Assembly (NCBI GenBank): GCA_001749745.1
Contig: JWTM01000101.1
Location: forward strand, 186,001-250,000
Direction: 5' to 3'
Length of the DNA: 64,000 nt
Origin: Candidatus Marispirochaeta associata
GTDB taxonomy: Bacteria; Spirochaetota; Spirochaetia; JC444; Marispirochaetaceae
Shown: positions 4,477-32,646 of the stretch, piece after piece
How the letters are laid out: each line of letters starts with the position of its first letter
Numbering within the stretch: position 1 is the first letter of the stretch
Notes under the pieces: generated by a model
What the model was told of the DNA's origin: nothing
Database searches by the model: none
The model's input: only the letters and a program-made list of their open reading frames with translations
Made by a program: the position numbers and the translations under genes

Positions 4477-5529
4477 ATGGCGCGCAAGAACTTAATGAAA
4501 GGATTCAAAAAACCGAAGGGGATTACCTTCGAACACTCGGAGGTAAACCGAAACTATGGGAAATTCGTAGCCTATCCCTTTGAGCGGGGATTCGGTACGA
4601 CCATTGGCAATACCTTGCGCCGTGTGCTGTTGAGTTCGATCCAGGGGTATGCGATTACCGCGGTGAAGATCACCAGCTACGATGAGGAAGGGACGCCCCA
4701 TATTATCTCGTCGGAGTTCGAGTCGATTCCCGAGGTGGTAGAGGATACCCCTGAAATTATCAATAACCTGAAGAATCTTCAGGTTCGTCTTCCCAACGAG
4801 CTGGATCAGAAAACAGTGCTGGTCGAGTTCAAGGGCCCCGGAGAGATTACCGGTGAATCCATTGCCAAGGCTGCGGACGTAGAGATCGTCAATCAGGATC
4901 TCAAGATCGCCACCATGATGGACAAGGCCAACATTGATCTGGAACTCCAGATCGATCTGGGCCGCGGTTATACTCCGGCGGAGACCAACGAGAAGTACAT
5001 CGATGTGATCGGTACGATTGCGGTCGATTCCGTATTCTCCCCCGTTAAGCGGGTAAAATACTCGATCGAGAACACCCGTGTCGGTCAGCGCAGCGATTAC
5101 GACAAGCTGGTGCTCGAGGTATTCACCGACGGGACCATCAGTCCCGAAGACTCTGTGGCCGAAGCGGCGAAGATTGCCAAGGATCACTTTTCAATCTTTA
5201 TCAACTTTGATGAGGATTCGGTTACCGGCGACGACGAGATGGATGAAGAGGAAGAGCGGGTGCGTGCAATCCTCGATACGCCGGTTGAGGAGCTGGAACT
5301 CTCGGTACGGTCCAGCAACTGTCTCAAGAATGCGAATATCAAGACCATCGGCGATCTGACGCGCAGAACCGAGGATGATATTGCTAAGACCCGTAACTTC
5401 GGTAAGAAGTCCCTTACGGAGATCAAAGAGAAACTTCAGGAATGGAACCTTCACCTGGGCATGACCGACTACAGTGTGCTCAAGGATTCCGACAGGTTCA
5501 TGAAAGGCAAAGAAGAAGATGAAGCATAG
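4477..5529 (+). CDS. rpoA: DNA-directed RNA polymerase alpha subunit
   Basis: Protein of 350 residues, within the usual 310-350 range. The N-terminal dimerisation domain contains [20 protein letters not shown] (about 40-59). The C-terminal domain (from about residue 265: [19 protein letters not shown]) has the helix-hairpin-helix elements that contact UP elements and activators. A strongly acidic linker (DEMDEEEER) lies between them. The end overlaps the start of rplQ by 11 bases, which implies translational coupling. Confidence 0.98.
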
Positions 5530-6085
5530 AGTTGGATTTAATCGTCTCAGCCGGAAAGCCAGTCACCGTCGAGCCATGCTGAGGAATATGGTAACCTCCC
5601 TGTTCGATCACGAGCGGATCACCACCACCAAGGCCAAGGCCCTGGAGGTACGTCGAATCGCCGAGAAGATGATCACCAGAGCGAAGACGGACTCGGTACA
5701 CAACCGGCGCATGACTGCCCGGTATATCTGGGACAAGGCTATCGTCAACAAGCTGTACACCGAAATCGGACCCCGTTTCGCCGAGCGGAACGGCGGATAC
5801 TGCCGTATCTTGAAGATCGGCCATCGCCAAGGCGACGCTGCCGATATGGCTATTCTCGAACTCCTCGGCCGCAACGGCGAGGAAGAAGAGAAGCCTGCTA
5901 AGGAGAAGGCCAAGAAGAGCAAGAAGGAGACTCCGAAAAAAGAGGCTCCCGCTAAGGCCGAAGCACCGAAGGAAGAGGCTCCCAAAAAGGAGACTCCGGC
6001 CGAGGAAGCTCCTGCGGCGGACGAACCCAAGGCCGAAGCTGCTGAAGCCGAAGCCGGTGAAGCTGAAGAGAAGAGCGAAGAGTAG
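5519..6085 (+). CDS. rplQ: 50S ribosomal protein L17 with long charged C-terminal tail
   Basis: The first ~120 residues are a complete L17 (start [20 protein letters not shown]; core [41 protein letters not shown]). L17 sits near the peptide exit tunnel. Residues from about 121 to 188 form an extra low-complexity tail of Lys, Ala, Pro and Glu that becomes progressively acidic. The ATG at 5519 lies inside rpoA. A strong terminator follows, so this is the last gene of the operon. Confidence 0.96.
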
Positions 6086-6107: not shown

Positions 6108-6134
6108 AAGGGGAGAGTAATCTCCCCTTTTTTT
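6108..6134 (+). terminator. Intrinsic terminator after rplQ
   Basis: A perfect 9-bp stem (AAGGGGAGA at 6108-6116 with TCTCCCCTT at 6121-6129), a GTAA loop, and T residues at 6128-6134. It is placed 22 bases after the rplQ stop and before a new promoter, so it closes the spc-alpha transcription unit. Confidence 0.93.
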
Positions 6135-6163: not shown

Positions 6164-6192
6164 TTTACATAGATCTTTATCATACCGATAAT
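6164..6192 (+). promoter_or_regulatory. sigma70-type promoter for the acidic-repeat membrane protein
   Basis: TTTACA at 6164-6169, a 17-base spacer and GATAAT at 6187-6192. A second -10-like TATACT lies at 6198-6203. An AAGGAG site at 6211-6216 precedes the ATG at 6232 by 15 bases, which is longer than normal spacing. Confidence 0.6.
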
Positions 6193-6231: not shown

Positions 6232-9200
6232 ATGCGACCAGGTCAGCGAATATCGATAAGTCTACTCCTCACGGTGGTGATCTTTACGGTGTTCACCTTC
6301 CTGGCCTATTCAGGTCTCTTTAACTATATCGAGACCACGATCTACAACAGCCGGGTTTCCGCCAGTATTCAGAGCGACCTGGAGGCCAAGGCCCGGGTAA
6401 TTCGAGATTTTCACCAGGGAAAGCTCACAAGCTTATTAGAAACCTTCTCCGATCCGATCTTCTGGCAGATATACCGCAACAATGAGAGTCAGGAGCTTAT
6501 TCAAGCCGTTGGCAATGCCGGAAATCAGTTGAGCGGGCAGCATCCCGGCTATCTAGGCTTTCGCTTTATCGATCCCGACGGGAAGATCTGGTATTCTAGC
6601 TTCCCTGGAGATCTGCGTGAGTCCAGCGCCACCCGGCGGGTCTATTTTCTGCTCGAGGATGTGGAGCCCGGACTAGAGATCGACTCGTATATCGTCTATG
6701 ATTCCCCTGCCTACCGCCTTGATCCCGAGGGTCAGCGCTTTGCCTACCTTCTGCCGGTCACCAATACCATAGAGGAGTACCAGGGTACGCTGGTGGTCTA
6801 TCTCGGTTATACCAGCCTCTTGAATACCATGGCGGCCAGAAATGTGCTCGAGGCGGGGCGTAGTTCTCGACTGGTAGGGGAGGGAGTCTATCTATTTAAT
6901 TCAGGTATCCTCCCCGACAACCAGAGTATCGCCGAGATTGCCCGGCTCTTAGAGAATCACAGTTCCGAACCGGAACAGCGCACTATCGGCGAGAGCGGCG
7001 AGAGTCTCTTTACCCTCTTCTCCCGTCCCGCCGAAGACCAGGGAGTTGTCGCCTACATTGTCAGCATGAATCAGCTGCAGCTCACCCTGCCCCTGCAGAT
7101 TCTGCTGCTTACCCTTGTCTTTCTGACCATCTTCCTGCTCATATTCCTTATATTGAGTTTTCGCCAGGATGACATGAGCGTCATCAGCGAGCGGATCAAG
7201 CGTTTTCAATACGGATTCTTGAAAGAGTACATTAACAAGAGTGATGATATAGATCTCAGTCGCTGGAGATCCGATCTGCAGAACCAGCAGGAGGCTATAA
7301 AAAAGCGGCTCCTTAAAGGGATTCGTAAAGCCCAGTTGGAGCAGGCGTCCGAGGCCTTCGATCAGAACTGGAATGATGTTATTGAACTCTTGACTCCCGA
7401 CAAGAAGAGCAGTTCCCCGGGCGTGGATATGCAGAATCTGGAACAGATTCTGGAGAAGGTTCTGGAGCGTCAGCGCCATCTGGAAAGCTCCATCGCCGCA
7501 GGACCCTCCCGCACTCAGGATAAACCCCGTCTAGAGTCAGCTCCCACGCCCCAAGTCGCCGAACCGGCCGAGGAACTTGACGAAGCGGAAGCCCTGGAAG
7601 AGGTCGAGGAGTCAGGCGAGGCCGAGGAACTCGATGAAGTAGAAGCCCTCGAGGAAGCCGAAGAACTCGACGAGGTAGAAGCCCTCGAGGAAGCCGAAGA
7701 GCTCGAGGAAGTGGAAGAACTTGACGAAGCGGAAGCCCTCGAGGAGGTCGAGGAGTTAGGCGAAGCCGAAGAACTCGATGAGGTAGAAGCCCTCGAGGAA
7801 GCCGAAGAACTCGACGAAGCGGAAGCCCTGGAAGAGGTCGAGGAGTTAGGCGAGACCGAGGAACTCGATGAGGTAGAAGCCCTCGAGGAAGTTGAAGAAC
7901 TCGACGAGGTAGAAGCCCTCGAGGAAGCTGAAGAGCTCGACGAAGCGGAAGCTCTGGAAGAGGTCGAGGAGTTAGGTGAAGCCGAAGAGTTAGGCGAAGC
8001 CGAGGAGCTCGATGAGGTAGAAGCCCTCGAGGAAGTTGAAGAACTCGACGAAGCGGAAGCCCTGGAAGAGGTCGAGGAGATAGGTGAAGCCGAAGAGTTA
8101 GGCGAGGCCGAGGAACTCGATGAGGTAGAAGCCCTCGAGGAAGCCGAAGAGCTCGACGAAGCGGAAGCCCTGGAAGATGTCGAAGAGTTAGGCGAGGCCG
8201 AGGAACTCGACGAGGTAGAAGCCCTCGAGGAAGCCGAAGCACTCAATGAGTTAGAAGCCCTCGAGGAGCCGGAGATACCGGAACTTGTATATCAGCAGGA
8301 ACAGTATGAGCTGGTCAGGCTTGAAGAGGCGCAGGATCTGCAAGGTCCGGATGAGGAGGATTTGGCTGAGGCGGAGATGCTCGAAGAGGTCGATGAGAGT
8401 CCCGAAGCAACCGGACTCTACTCGGATATGTTCTTTGCCGACGAAGATGCCTTCGATCTGGAAGCCCTCTTCCGCCGTCCCGAGGATTTAGGCGATATCG
8501 GGGTCTTCGAGGATGCCTATGACGAGGAGGCCGTCGAGGAGCTCGATGAACTCGAGGACGATACGGCGGAAGATGAAGGGCTTGAAGCTGCGCAGCAGCC
8601 TCTACCGGAAGAAGCACAGAAAAAATCCGACTTTCCGGTAGAAGAGCTTCATGAGCCGAGCGAAGATGAGATTGAGCTTCTTTCAGCTGCAAAGAGGGCT
8701 CACGGCGATACCCATATCTCTGTACGCCCCCTCGATTCCGAACCCTTTGAAATTCTCGAAGAGCTGCCCGAGATTGATGCCGGTCGCGAGAGCGCCGAGC
8801 TGCAACCGGTCGACCTGAGGGACAAGGACGGTCTTGCCTATCGCAGCATTGATCGTGATTTCAGCTATGCACCGATTTCTGTCGGGAGCGGTACCTTGTC
8901 CCTGCATGAGGATCTTCCCTCTCAGCTGCTGCTGGTCGGTACCGTCGATAGTACTGAGGTCGATAAACTGGTCTCGCAGGTAATAGAGCCCGGAAGCTGT
9001 GAAATTTATCCCTTTGCCGCCTTTCTCCCTCAAGAGGAGAAGGTGGAAGAGGCTATCGAGGAGAAGGATGGGGTCTTTCGGATTCGAGAAGAGGTCTACA
9101 GTACTAGCAAGAGTGGAGAGAGGAAGGAGTTCAAGGAGCTGGTAGATTCGGTCCTCAGGAGCGAAAGCGGCGACGAGAGCATCGATTCGATATTCTCCTC

Positions 9201-9729
9201 CGGTTCGGTCGACCTGGGATTCGCGCCGTTGAGTGAGGAATCAGCGGCCGGAAAAAAACTCAAAGGCGGCCAGATCGGTAATCAGCGCCTCCTGGGCCCC
9301 AAGGGCTTCAACTACGATCTCTATCTTCAAGATTTTCGAGAGGGGCATATCGGCATCATGAAATCCCTAATGCGGGTATCGGCCCAGTTCAATGCGGTTC
9401 ATGCGGCCATTCTCGGCTTCGACGAGGAGGGGCTGAACAGTCAGTATACCCTCGGAATGGATGAAACCGGCAATAAACGCCTCCGTTTCGATAAAGCCGA
9501 AGAGCTTTTCCCGCTTTTCCTGGACTATCGGATCATCTATTTGACGAGTTCTCTGGTCGGGGTTCCCTTTTTCGACCAGGCAATCGACGAGCGGGGCAAA
9601 CATTTCATTGAGGGACACCTCTTTCTTCCGGTAGTCTTAAGGGAAATTCCGGCCTATATCTACCTGGCTTTGAAGATGAAGCGCTCCAAAATGGAAGAGT
9701 ATATCGGGATTTTAAACGGTCTTATTTGA
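6232..9729 (+). CDS. Large membrane protein with acidic hexapeptide-repeat domain (unknown function)
   Basis: I do not recognise this 1165-residue protein as a named family. A signal-anchor helix (about residues 8-30) is followed by a region of ~250 residues that would lie outside the membrane and resembles a sensor-type domain in length and position. A second membrane helix spans about 285-310 (LQILLLTLVFLTIFLLIFLI). After a charged, probably coiled-coil stretch (315-430) comes a 234-residue block (447-680) of hexads such as EELDEV and EALEEA, almost free of basic residues, and then an acidic but non-repetitive region. The last ~170 residues (about 1000-1165) look like a folded cytoplasmic domain. 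It is monocistronic between the rplQ terminator and the rny promoter. The topology resembles a membrane receptor, but no catalytic or methylation motif is visible. Confidence 0.85.
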   Translation: MRPGQRISISLLLTVVIFTVFTFLAYSGLFNYIETTIYNSRVSASIQSDLEAKARVIRDFHQGKLTSLLETFSDPIFWQIYRNNESQELIQAVGNAGNQLSGQHPGYLGFRFIDPDGKIWYSSFPGDLRESSATRRVYFLLEDVEPGLEIDSYIVYDSPAYRLDPEGQRFAYLLPVTNTIEEYQGTLVVYLGYTSLLNTMAARNVLEAGRSSRLVGEGVYLFNSGILPDNQSIAEIARLLENHSSEPEQRTIGESGESLFTLFSRPAEDQGVVAYIVSMNQLQLTLPLQILLLTLVFLTIFLLIFLILSFRQDDMSVISERIKRFQYGFLKEYINKSDDIDLSRWRSDLQNQQEAIKKRLLKGIRKAQLEQASEAFDQNWNDVIELLTPDKKSSSPGVDMQNLEQILEKVLERQRHLESSIAAGPSRTQDKPRLESAPTPQVAEPAEELDEAEALEEVEESGEAEELDEVEALEEAEELDEVEALEEAEELEEVEELDEAEALEEVEELGEAEELDEVEALEEAEELDEAEALEEVEELGETEELDEVEALEEVEELDEVEALEEAEELDEAEALEEVEELGEAEELGEAEELDEVEALEEVEELDEAEALEEVEEIGEAEELGEAEELDEVEALEEAEELDEAEALEDVEELGEAEELDEVEALEEAEALNELEALEEPEIPELVYQQEQYELVRLEEAQDLQGPDEEDLAEAEMLEEVDESPEATGLYSDMFFADEDAFDLEALFRRPEDLGDIGVFEDAYDEEAVEELDELEDDTAEDEGLEAAQQPLPEEAQKKSDFPVEELHEPSEDEIELLSAAKRAHGDTHISVRPLDSEPFEILEELPEIDAGRESAELQPVDLRDKDGLAYRSIDRDFSYAPISVGSGTLSLHEDLPSQLLLVGTVDSTEVDKLVSQVIEPGSCEIYPFAAFLPQEEKVEEAIEEKDGVFRIREEVYSTSKSGERKEFKELVDSVLRSESGDESIDSIFSSGSVDLGFAPLSEESAAGKKLKGGQIGNQRLLGPKGFNYDLYLQDFREGHIGIMKSLMRVSAQFNAVHAAILGFDEEGLNSQYTLGMDETGNKRLRFDKAEELFPLFLDYRIIYLTSSLVGVPFFDQAIDERGKHFIEGHLFLPVVLREIPAYIYLALKMKRSKMEEYIGILNGLI
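7570..8271 (+). repeat. Coding tandem repeat, 39 units of 18 bp (acidic hexapeptides)
   Basis: Thirty-nine consecutive in-frame 18-base units encode hexapeptides of the form E-[EA]-L-x-E-[AV], for example EELDEA, EALEEV and EELGEA. Units alternate in 12- and 18-residue higher-order groups, and long stretches are nearly identical at the DNA level. The codons used (GAG, GAA, CTC, GCC) leave the opposite strand open as well, which explains the long antisense frames here. Such a tract can expand or shrink in frame. Confidence 0.95.
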
Positions 9730-9775: not shown

Positions 9776-9803
9776 TTGACAAATGTGTTGCAATATTTAT
9801 AAT
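9776..9803 (+). promoter_or_regulatory. Consensus sigma70-type promoter of rny
   Basis: Exact TTGACA (9776-9781), 16-base spacer and exact TATAAT (9798-9803). A GGAGG site at 9823-9827 precedes the ATG at 9835. The promoter overlaps a possible earlier in-frame ATG at 9772, which argues against that earlier start. Confidence 0.88.
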
Positions 9804-9834
9804 TATGCTTACATTTGCATCTGGAGGAAGAAGC

Positions 9835-11364
9835 ATGAGTCTATTGCTTAGTATCATTCTTCCTCTCGTTGGTATAATTCTAGGTTGGACGATTAGATGG
9901 GTCTATGCCCGATTCCAGCTCTCTTCTGTTGAACAGAGGGCTGAACGCTTAAGTCAGGATGCTATTCGGGAAGCCGAAGCACGTAAACGGGAACTTCTAC
10001 TTGAAACAAAAGATCAGCTCCTCAAGGAGCGGAACAGCCAGGAACGAGAGTTTCGGGAGAGAAGAAACGAGTTACAACGTCTGGACAGACGTCTGCAGCA
10101 GAGAGAAGAAAACTTAGAAAAGAAACAGAGCTTGCTTGAACGCCAGAAGCAGGAACTTACCGATCGAGAGGGGAAACTAGAACAGGAAGAGGCGCAGATT
10201 GCGCAGAAGATAGAACAGTGGCGGGACGAACTGGAGAAGATCGCCGGCATGACCTCGGAAGAGGCCAAGAAGCTGATCATGAACTCCATGGAAAACGAAG
10301 CTCGTCATGACGCTCAGGTTATTATCAACAAGATTGAACAGGAAGCCACCGCAACGGCCGACAAGAAGGCCCGGGATATCCTGATCACGACTATCCAGCG
10401 CCTCTCTACGGAGGTGAGCTCGGAGATTACCGTCGCTTCAGTGAGTCTACCCAATGACGAGATGAAGGGGCGGATCATCGGCCGGGAGGGGCGGAATATC
10501 CGGACCCTTGAGACCCTTACCGGTGTGGATGTGATTATCGACGATACCCCGGAAGCGGTCGTGATCTCCTGTTTCGATCCTATCCGCAAAGAGATTGCCC
10601 GGCGTTCTCTGGAGCGTCTGATAACCGACGGGCGGATCCACCCGGCTCGAATCGAAGAGGTGGTTCAGAAGGTTACCAAGGAGATCAGTCAGATCATCTA
10701 CGAGGAGGGCGAGAAGGTCCTCTTCGATCTGGGGGTCCATAACATGAGTCAGGAGTGTGTTCGGGCTCTGGGACGCCTTCATTTCCGGACCAGCTATGGG
10801 CAGAATGTGCTTAATCACTCGAAAGAGGTTGCTATCCTCGCCGGAATGCTCGCCGCAGAGGTGGGAGCCGACCGGGAGATCGCCAAGCGCGGCGCCCTGC
10901 TCCACGACATCGGCAAGGGAATCGAGACCGACGGCGACGGCAATCATGCCGAGCTCGGTATGGATCTCGCCCGCAAGAACGGTGAGGATAATCGGGTCAT
11001 CAATGCCATCGGCTCGCATCATAACGATATCGAACCCAACAGCGTCGAGTCTATTCTGGTACAGATTGCCGATGCGATCTCCGCCGCCCGGCCCGGCGCT
11101 AGGCGGGAGACCCTGAACAACTATATCAAGCGCTTGGAGAACCTCGAGCGGATCGCCGGCGAGTTCGACGGAGTCGAGAAGACCTTTGCCATCCAGGCCG
11201 GACGGGAACTCAGAATCATGGTCAACCATGATAAGATCGGCGACGATAAGGCCAAGGATCTCGCTAAGGAGATAGCCAAGAAGATCGAGTCGGAGCTCAG
11301 GTATCCGGGTCGAATCAAAGTAACGATCATTCGCGAGACCCGGGTCGTCGAGTACGCCCGTTGA
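9835..11364 (+). CDS. rny: Ribonuclease Y
   Basis: Membrane-anchored endoribonuclease that initiates mRNA decay in many bacteria lacking RNase E. From ATG 9835 the product has 509 residues, close to the usual ~515. An N-terminal membrane helix (SLLLSIILPLVGIILGWTI) is followed by a long charged coiled coil, a KH domain (GRIIGREGRNIRTLETLTGV) and an HD domain with the metal-binding HDIGKG at about residues 357-362. I chose this start because it has a good Shine-Dalgarno sequence and lies just downstream of the promoter. ymdB follows, as in Bacillus. Confidence 0.97.
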   Translation: MSLLLSIILPLVGIILGWTIRWVYARFQLSSVEQRAERLSQDAIREAEARKRELLLETKDQLLKERNSQEREFRERRNELQRLDRRLQQREENLEKKQSLLERQKQELTDREGKLEQEEAQIAQKIEQWRDELEKIAGMTSEEAKKLIMNSMENEARHDAQVIINKIEQEATATADKKARDILITTIQRLSTEVSSEITVASVSLPNDEMKGRIIGREGRNIRTLETLTGVDVIIDDTPEAVVISCFDPIRKEIARRSLERLITDGRIHPARIEEVVQKVTKEISQIIYEEGEKVLFDLGVHNMSQECVRALGRLHFRTSYGQNVLNHSKEVAILAGMLAAEVGADREIAKRGALLHDIGKGIETDGDGNHAELGMDLARKNGEDNRVINAIGSHHNDIEPNSVESILVQIADAISAARPGARRETLNNYIKRLENLERIAGEFDGVEKTFAIQAGRELRIMVNHDKIGDDKAKDLAKEIAKKIESELRYPGRIKVTIIRETRVVEYAR

Positions 11365-13002: not shown

Positions 13003-13787
13003 AGCGACTCCCGGGAGAGGGGCTTTCCGATATAGAGGCCCTCCGGATTGAGGTACTGCTGCTTTTGACCGTCGATCAGGAACTGCACCTGGGATACGGT
13101 GGCAAACTCCGTGGCCGTATAGATCAGCTGCTTCAACTGCAGTACGGAGCCTTCGTAACCGAAGGCGTTGAAACGAAACTCCTCGGACATATCGATATAA
13201 GCGATCCCGTCCTTGACGATCACCGAGCGGATTGTCGCATCCCCCGGGATGAGGGAGATCAGATTTTGATTTAGTTCGGAGCCCGAAGGTCCCTCTAAGA
13301 GCGCCCTGAGGGTATCGGTCAGCGGGGAGTCGACATAATAGACCGGCCGAACAATCCGGCGGAGCTCGCCCTTGCTCCCGTCGTGGAAAACAAAGTAGAG
13401 GGCCGCCCGGCGCACCCGTCGTTCCTCGACGTTCGTATTCTCCGTGCTGTTGGAAGAGGAGCTGTTCTCGGGAACCACCTCAAGGGCGATCACCTCCTCC
13501 GGTTCGGAGGACTCAAGCTCATCGGGACTCGTTTCCTCCGGCGCTTCGGGAGTTTCCGCTTCAGGAGTCTCCAGTGCGGGTGCGGGCTCCTCGCGGCTGC
13601 TCTCCGGCTCTTCCCCGCGGCGTTCTATCTCGGGCTCCTCGCGGCTGGTGCTGATCACGTCGATAAAGCCGGTGGTCTCGAGCACCGTCTCTATCCGTTT
13701 GCGGTTGAAGAGAAATATTACCAGTACCAGCAAGATCAGGGCTATCCAAAAGAGGCATCCTAAGGATGTCTTCCGTTTCTGTTTCAT
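12999..13787 (-). CDS. GerMN-domain membrane protein
   Basis: From ATG at 13787 the product has 262 residues: a cytoplasmic basic start, a membrane helix (GCLFWIALILLVLVIFLF), a low-complexity Glu/Pro/Ser linker and a C-terminal GerMN domain (from about RRAALYFVFHDGSKGELR to LIDGQKQQYLN). GerMN domains occur in spore-germination proteins and in many non-sporulating bacteria as envelope proteins of unclear role. A TTG at 13829 would add 14 residues, but it lies inside the ptsI promoter region and has no Shine-Dalgarno sequence. It diverges from ptsI with 69 bases between the starts. Confidence 0.85.
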   Translation of the reverse strand: MKQKRKTSLGCLFWIALILLVLVIFLFNRKRIETVLETTGFIDVISTSREEPEIERRGEEPESSREEPAPALETPEAETPEAPEETSPDELESSEPEEVIALEVVPENSSSSNSTENTNVEERRVRRAALYFVFHDGSKGELRRIVRPVYYVDSPLTDTLRALLEGPSGSELNQNLISLIPGDATIRSVIVKDGIAYIDMSEEFRFNAFGYEGSVLQLKQLIYTATEFATVSQVQFLIDGQKQQYLNPEGLYIGKPLSRESL

Positions 13788-31515: not shown

Positions 31516-32646
31516 TTGGCCAAACGTGACTACTACGAAGTCCTCGGCGTTGCAAAGGACGCCTCGAAAGAGGATATAAAACGAGCCTACAGAAAAATGG
31601 CGGTACAAAACCATCCGGACCGCAACCCCGGCGACACAAAGGCGGAGGAACGCTTCAAGGAGGCGACCGAGGCTTACGAGGTGCTCGGGGATGAACAGAA
31701 GCGTCAGACCTACGATCAGTTCGGCTTTGCCGGTCTCGAGGGAATGGGCGGCGGAGGACACGACTATTCCACGGTTTTCCGGGATTTCGAGGATATCTTC
31801 GGGGATTTCGGCGGTATCTTCGACTCCTTCTTCGGGGGAGGCGGAGGCCGGGGCGGACGTCGGCGTTCATCGGGCGCGGCTAACCGCGGCGCCGACCTGC
31901 GCTACAACCTGGAGATATCCTTCAAGGATGCGGTCTTCGGAACGAAACTCGAAATCTCCTACCGCAAGAACTCCGCCTGTGCGAGCTGTAAGGGGCATGG
32001 AACGACATCCGGCAGCGGCAAGAAGATGTGTCCCACCTGCGGAGGATCGGGGCAGGTCCGGCGTAGCTCCGGATTCTTCTCGATCGCCTCCCCTTGTCCG
32101 ACCTGTTCGGGCGAGGGCTACATAATCGAAAATCCCTGCGGCGACTGCGGCGGATCCGGTGTACAGCCGAAGAATCAGAAGATTAAGGTTACCATTCCCC
32201 CGGGAATCGAGCATGGAAAACGGATCAATATCCCCGGTCAAGGCGATGTCGGTCCCAACGGCGGTCCGGCGGGGGACCTGTATGTCTACATCAGCGTGAC
32301 TCCCCATAAGTATTTCGAGCGGGACGGAAACGATCTCTACTGTATGATTCCCATATCTATAACCCAAGCCGCCCTCGGCGCGGAGATCTACGTCACCACC
32401 CTGGATGATAAGAAGATCAAGGTAAAGATCCCGGCGGGGACCCAGAACGGTAAGATCCTCAGGATCCGCAACGAAGGGGTGCCCCATCTGCATAATACCC
32501 AGCAGCGGGGGGATATCTACATCAAGATCAGTGTGACCATTCCGACCAAGCTATCGGGAAAGGCGAAGAACCTCCTGAAGGAGCTCTCCGAAATGGAGGG
32601 TGAGGAGAAGCAGCCCGATCCGGTACCCTTGTCGCAGCTACGTTAG
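31516..32646 (+). CDS. dnaJ: Co-chaperone DnaJ (type I Hsp40)
   Basis: Protein of 376 residues with TTG start, preceded by a GAGGAAGGA site. J domain with HPD (residues ~36-38, in QNHPDRNPGD), a Gly/Phe-rich linker (GGGGHDY to GGGGRGG), four CxxCxGxG zinc repeats (CASCKGHG, CPTCGGSG, CPTCSGEG, CGDCGGSG) and the C-terminal substrate domain. It stimulates the ATPase of DnaK. A 93-base gap with a hairpin separates it from dnaK. Confidence 0.98.
   Translation: MAKRDYYEVLGVAKDASKEDIKRAYRKMAVQNHPDRNPGDTKAEERFKEATEAYEVLGDEQKRQTYDQFGFAGLEGMGGGGHDYSTVFRDFEDIFGDFGGIFDSFFGGGGGRGGRRRSSGAANRGADLRYNLEISFKDAVFGTKLEISYRKNSACASCKGHGTTSGSGKKMCPTCGGSGQVRRSSGFFSIASPCPTCSGEGYIIENPCGDCGGSGVQPKNQKIKVTIPPGIEHGKRINIPGQGDVGPNGGPAGDLYVYISVTPHKYFERDGNDLYCMIPISITQAALGAEIYVTTLDDKKIKVKIPAGTQNGKILRIRNEGVPHLHNTQQRGDIYIKISVTIPTKLSGKAKNLLKELSEMEGEEKQPDPVPLSQLR

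Follow-up and report, generated by a model that had tools for sequence, protein, structure and literature searches.

An acidic linker of three-residue periodicity in an undescribed family of spirochaete membrane sensor proteins

Introduction

Sensors of the dCache class, such as the chemoreceptor TlpA of H. pylori and the kinases DctB and KinD, consist of a double-Cache fold held between two transmembrane (TM) helices. Some chemoreceptors carry a flexible C-terminal tether with a docking pentapeptide for CheR/CheB. In spirochaetes, variable tandem repeats have been described in the Treponema pallidum genes for Arp (TP0433) and TP0470 (PMC9531955). Dense arrays of carboxylates are typified by poly-glutamate, which at pH 7 lies near the polyproline II (PPII) helix, an extended conformation (PMC12750409).

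We analysed a 64-kb stretch of spirochaete DNA (the window), in which a large open reading frame (ORF) holds a long acidic tract. Like dCache sensors, the tract protein has a double-Cache-like fold between two TM helices, but it lacks an MCP signalling domain, a kinase or any known output, and it scores below the cut-off of the dCache_1 model. Its last 140 residues have the fold of GAF domains (3hcy, 5w10 and others) with no Pfam GAF match. The family to which it belongs is therefore neither a chemoreceptor nor a kinase family, and its likeness to dCache and GAF is at the level of the fold only. The Treponema-type members, made of a sensor, a flexible tail and an end peptide, would work much as the chemoreceptor tether does; however, they have no MCP module, their FKxLVDSVL peptide is unrelated to the pentapeptide, and the family tether is far longer and polyanionic. 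The genes for Arp and TP0470 are different genes, set apart by name and position. The tract shares the dense carboxylates of poly-glutamate yet differs from it in that every third residue is hydrophobic. The parts of the protein are known folds; their combination and the triplet linker have no description in the literature searched.

Results

The initial annotation of this DNA had placed 39 units of an acidic hexapeptide, with an 18-base DNA period and virtually no basic residues, at 7570-8271. These coordinates proved exact: the tract is in frame, spans aa 447-680 and consists of 39 x 18 bp. Of its 234 residues (E116 L38 A35 V17 D15 G8 S1 T1 I1 N1 P1), 131 are acidic and none is K, R or H, giving a net charge of -131. 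The K/R/H-free run enclosing the tract is 262 aa long, against 84 for the runner-up among window ORFs of 150 aa or more, and the D+E content of the protein peaks at 59 per 100 aa versus 29 for the next ORF of the window. Position 1 of the hexapeptide is E in 39/39 units, position 3 is L in 37/39 and position 5 is E in 38/39. Third codon positions vary between units and pN/pS is 0.23, the mark of purifying selection. Together with the near-invariant E at positions 1 and 5, this shows a constraint on the protein sequence and not on the DNA alone.

Tandem Repeats Finder resolved the array into higher-order periods of 36, 90, 108, 126 and 234 bp, so blocks of units were duplicated. The longest exact repeat within the array is 44 bp. 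Short reads could therefore resolve it, and the assembled copy number is credible, if not proven by long reads. This length and the similar tracts found in single-contig genomes (e.g. L082, L087, L160) rule out an assembly artefact, a caveat of the initial annotation. The repeat is real, very acidic and located inside a membrane sensor protein. The purine-rich DNA does not act as a Shine-Dalgarno-like pausing signal by count (31 SD-like 5-mers vs 30.6 in synonymous shuffles), and two antisense ORFs over the tract (243 and 287 aa) were rejected as genes because they are a by-product of the 18-bp period. Acidic nascent chains are known for intrinsic ribosome destabilisation (PMC9718836).

The features of the protein are as follows.

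6232..9729, + strand: whole-protein ORF, 1165 aa (relatives by profile)
6253..6324, + strand: TM helix 1, aa ~8-31 (sequence; AlphaFold helix 3-71)
6325..7083, + strand: extracytoplasmic double-Cache-like (dCache) sensor domain, aa ~32-284 (fold match)
7087..7155, + strand: TM helix 2, aa ~286-308 (sequence; AlphaFold helix 286-335)
7156..7521, + strand: conserved cytoplasmic juxtamembrane helices, aa 309-430 (best-conserved stretch VISERIKRFQ)
7570..8271, + strand: acidic tract, aa 447-680, 39 hexapeptides or 78 triplets of acidic, mostly acidic and hydrophobic residues
8452..8514, + strand: aa 741-761, short conserved stretch FDLEALFRRPEDLGDIGVFED within the distal part of the linker (translations inspected by eye)
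9067..9156, + strand: conserved linker motif pair DGVFRI ... FKELVDSVL, aa 946-975
9178..9216, + strand: SIDSIFSSGSVDL, aa 983-995 (translations and alignment; several relatives have similar stretches such as IEDIFSSAGVEL)
9301..9726, + strand: C-terminal GAF-like domain, aa ~1024-1165 (AlphaFold and PDB fold matches)

An AlphaFold model was built with 33 related sequences. It shows a double-PAS-like fold between the two TM helices, with a pLDDT mostly of 75-94 in the external domain. The best structural match of this domain is the ligand-binding domain of H. pylori TlpA (Foldseek E 4.3e-6, probability 1.00), and other dCache domains also matched, which bears out the sensor-like external region and the two-helix membrane region read earlier from the sequence. 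Pfam dCache_1 (PF02743) gave a subthreshold 17.5 or 15.1 bits against a cut-off of 45 (E 0.003-0.017), and the N-domain profile, searched against PDB sequences, returned nothing below E 0.1. The juxtamembrane segment carries a net charge of +4, and eight of its residues (Q312, D313, V317, S319, R321, K323, F325 and W380) are invariant in 33 sequences. The tract was said to sit just inside the membrane; it is indeed cytoplasmic and follows TM helix 2, but it begins ~140 residues beyond that helix. Further along the linker, the FDLEALFRRPEDLGDIGVFED stretch can be recognised by eye in relatives of the same genus, the same family and in some of the same class.

The C-terminal ~140 residues were modelled with a pLDDT mostly of 85-96, and their best PDB fold matches are GAF domains (3hcy, E 2.8e-5; 5w10, E 1.9e-4). 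Because the target-normalised TM-scores to GAF structures are ~0.5-0.6, we term this domain GAF-like; the Pfam GAF profile matched none of 17 family members. Searches of the protein with Pfam and NCBIfam found no methyl-accepting chemotaxis signalling domain, no kinase or other recognised output domain and, over all 1165 aa, no model above its cut-off.

The protein is a member of an undescribed spirochaete family that no Pfam or NCBIfam model detects. For the genome scan, a narrow profile was used, with a pattern taken from the juxtamembrane stretch VISERIKRFQ. A profile (A1) found the family in 161/297 genomes and 82/112 genera of the class. Among 60 class relatives searched, the N-terminal part was matched in 37 genomes and the C-terminal part in 31. 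Fainter matches occurred outside the class in the sample of the phylum Spirochaetota, where the identical architecture could be read in L179 and L181. Named relatives are Spirochaetes without exception, and a plasmid search found none. The ORF adjoining TP0594 in genome G076 is a family member, so the T. pallidum member is presumably TP0593, as judged by position and an assumed strain identity. TP0594 itself is 225 aa long (PMC3373638). The literature searched yielded nothing on TP0593, on a dCache plus GAF protein in Treponema or on the family as a whole; titles on RNase Y in spirochetes likewise held nothing about the tract-bearing gene. Much of a bacterial phylum, and apparently the syphilis spirochaete within it, has retained this membrane sensor family. 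In one genome of the same genus (G001, locus L062), the otherwise open family gene has an in-frame TAA at codon 103, either a pseudogene or a sequencing error.

Nearly all linkers read in relatives were acidic, but the repeat unit depends on the lineage: EELEEA in the nearest relatives and, elsewhere, EEL plus ESPxELE, EELDEV, EAEAVEELDEVE, EEIGEV or EEIEEI. Close relatives differ as well. The N-domains of L118 and L125 are 98.6% identical, yet unit variants and numbers differ; those of L085 and L087 are 94.6% identical, and the hexads number roughly 11 vs 17 by reading. Repeat number is not fixed among relatives, and length variation, expected between strains, was found at the level of sister species or MAGs. 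The family gene was cut by a contig end in 10 of the loci fetched and had an N gap inside it in 4, as expected from the repeat; the linker may account for the breaks that several spirochaete assemblies show there. Shorter and less repetitive linkers were seen in L159, L162 and L166.

The earlier reading took the hexapeptide as the basic unit. The 39 hexads are there, but the basic period is the triplet: the hydrophobic spectral power of the tract is 20.0 at period 3.0 versus 1.2 at 6.0, 0.09 at 3.6 and 0.02 at 3.5. The last two values agree with the earlier view that the tract is not a coiled coil, which calls for a heptad period of 3.5 or one of ~3.6. We also rejected a single alpha-helix (ER/K) domain, which needs alternating acidic and basic residues and finds no K or R in the 234 aa. 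The left-handed beta-helix hexapeptide motif is [LIV]-[GAED]-x-x-[STAV]-x. In the tract the small residue falls at i+3 and not at i+4, and Pfam Hexapep gave no match, so this fold was rejected too.

The same period was found in the relatives. Acidic windows of their linkers had a hydrophobic power of 2.96 at 3.0 versus 0.22 after shuffling, 0.16 at 3.5 and 0.13 at 3.6; acidic windows from other ORFs of the same loci reached 0.45 at 3.0. Tandem arrays stood well above shuffled sequence in 42/67 linkers, and 41 of these 42 had a period divisible by 3. To separate periodicity from mere duplication, we chose windows without any exactly repeated DNA 12-mer (34 windows, 18 proteins). Their power at 3.0 was still 1.06 versus 0.27 shuffled. 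The rule is thus a triplet of acidic, mostly acidic and hydrophobic residues, and the hexamer of the window is one instance of it. Charge and the three-residue pattern are conserved while unit and copy number turn over. Period 3 could in part be inherited from ancestral EEL-like expansions instead of being selected for structure.

A motif near FKxLVDSVL was present in the linkers of 39/59 intact relatives (mean 1.1 in shuffled linkers), usually ~20 residues after DGVFxI; the pattern used found none in the other 20/59. In 16 relatives, mostly Treponema-type proteins without the GAF-like domain, the motif lies at most 8 residues from the C-terminus. The GAF-like domain is usual in the family and absent in several lineages. 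The survival of the motif as the very end of a protein is the best hint of a docking role, and we regard the motif as a candidate docking peptide. In L121, L122, L123, L124, L126 and L128 the protein ends at or shortly after LVDSVL, has no GAF-like domain and is encoded away from rplQ.

The neighbourhood of the gene comprises the following features.

5519..6085, + strand: rplQ (L17), upstream neighbour, in the identical place in 45/70 relatives
6110..6125, + strand: terminator-like hairpin and T run in the gap between rplQ and the tract gene (by consensus alone; 10 such sites against 9.4 expected)
6164..6192, + strand: promoter-like site TTTACA-17-GATAAT, 10/12, upstream of the tract gene (consensus match only)
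9829..11364, + strand: rny (RNase Y), the next gene downstream, in the identical place in 18/59 relatives

The order rpoA-rplQ-X-rny, where X is the tract gene, occurs in the window and in several families. Downstream genes in other relatives vary and include no constant partner. A neighbourhood this varied names no partner. In L160 the ORFs read place the family gene in a row with LolA-like, RodZ-like, RimO and peptidase-like genes. A perfect sigma-70-like site, TTGACA-16-TATAAT (12/12, consensus match), lies at 9776-9803 directly upstream of rny and suggests that rny has its own promoter.

Discussion

We propose that the tract forms the acidic centre of a long cytoplasmic tether, intrinsically disordered, within a membrane sensor found across the spirochaetes, where it would present the distal motif and the GAF-like domain; we give this reading about even odds (~50%). 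A spacer had been one of the roles suggested for the tract. We favour its tether form because the conserved elements (juxtamembrane helices, distal motif and GAF-like domain) lie outside the repeat. From the charge-hydropathy value of the tract (0.56 against a boundary of ~0, far into the disordered region), we infer that it is disordered. By analogy with poly-glutamate it is probably extended and PPII-like. With three residues to each turn of a PPII helix, side chains spaced three apart would line up on one edge. Self-repulsion of the carboxylates would keep the chain extended; if each residue spans 0.31 nm, the tract would reach up to ~70 nm. Such a tether could hold the motif and the GAF-like domain off the anionic membrane and nucleic acids and within reach of a partner; access may be governed by the juxtamembrane helices together with the dCache domain. 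The repeat would grow and shrink through tandem duplication of 9-bp multiples, and this turnover would be tolerated or favoured because any unit of two E and a hydrophobic residue does the job. The tract could turn helical under the influence of its hydrophobic residues, of divalent cations or of low pH.

A stronger version of the tether is speculative, and we think it rather less probable. It holds that a selected triplet code, (acidic-acidic-hydrophobic)n, may build a charged, amphipathic PPII-like rod throughout a phylum-wide sensor family: a renewable spacer tens of nm long, its length reset by duplications of 9-bp multiples, that would start at the membrane and carry a docking motif into the cytoplasm. 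The short, little-repeated linkers of, for example, L159 and L162 show that not every member needs a long rod. The linker looks constrained in charge and in three-residue spacing, not in sequence, with a repeat rebuilt repeatedly. The family makes selection for extended polyelectrolyte tethers in bacteria testable.

Among the alternatives, a docking track or decoy fares best, although we hold it to be unlikely. The polyanion would bind basic partners (ribosomal or nucleic-acid-binding proteins, or its own juxtamembrane helices), and the hydrophobic third residues would add weak, sticky contacts. The charges of -131 on the tract and +4 on the juxtamembrane segment, the regular hydrophobic spacing and the place of the gene after rplQ in most relatives all suit this idea. 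However, the rplQ neighbourhood is possibly just ancestral; in Treponema-type genomes the gene has changed its place and the family persists. Unspecific binding of basic proteins is common among polyanions.

Mostly neutral expansion seems a little less likely again. Here the linker would be a duplication hotspot that tolerates anything soluble, its acidity being simply what is tolerated; the fast turnover of units and copy number and the shorter linkers of L159, L162 and L166 fit this. It does not readily account for the recurrence of the triplet and of the absence of K, R and H in many lineages, with different units and in non-repeated windows, nor for the pN/pS inside the tract.

We consider a cation (Ca2+, Mg2+) or pH cushion improbable. 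The transition pH of poly-glutamate is far from cytoplasmic pH. The protein has no match to a known Ca-binding Pfam model, and the linkers differ too much in length and unit to suit a tuned site. The case for a cushion is that the carboxylates are dense and that binding or protonation could make the tract helical or compact and so signal to the GAF-like domain, much as poly-glutamate passes from a PPII-like state at pH 7 to an alpha-helix at pH 4.2-5.5 (PMC12750409).

A role as accessory to RNase Y or translation, with the protein as a membrane scaffold for RNA degradation beside rny, is suggested by the rpoA-rplQ-X-rny order but is very improbable, and we rejected RNase Y as the partner, because rny lies directly downstream in so few relatives, a 12/12 promoter-like site separates the two genes, and reading the neighbours in the Treponema-type loci L159, L160 and L161 revealed no RNA-decay gene.

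Two minor features of the window lie outside the tract gene. L17 carries a K/E/A/P-rich C-terminal extension of ~70 residues past its Pfam domain (aa 20-115 of 188), and two more short tandem repeats, with 24-bp and 21-bp units, are found at 13583-13647 and 31777-31822.
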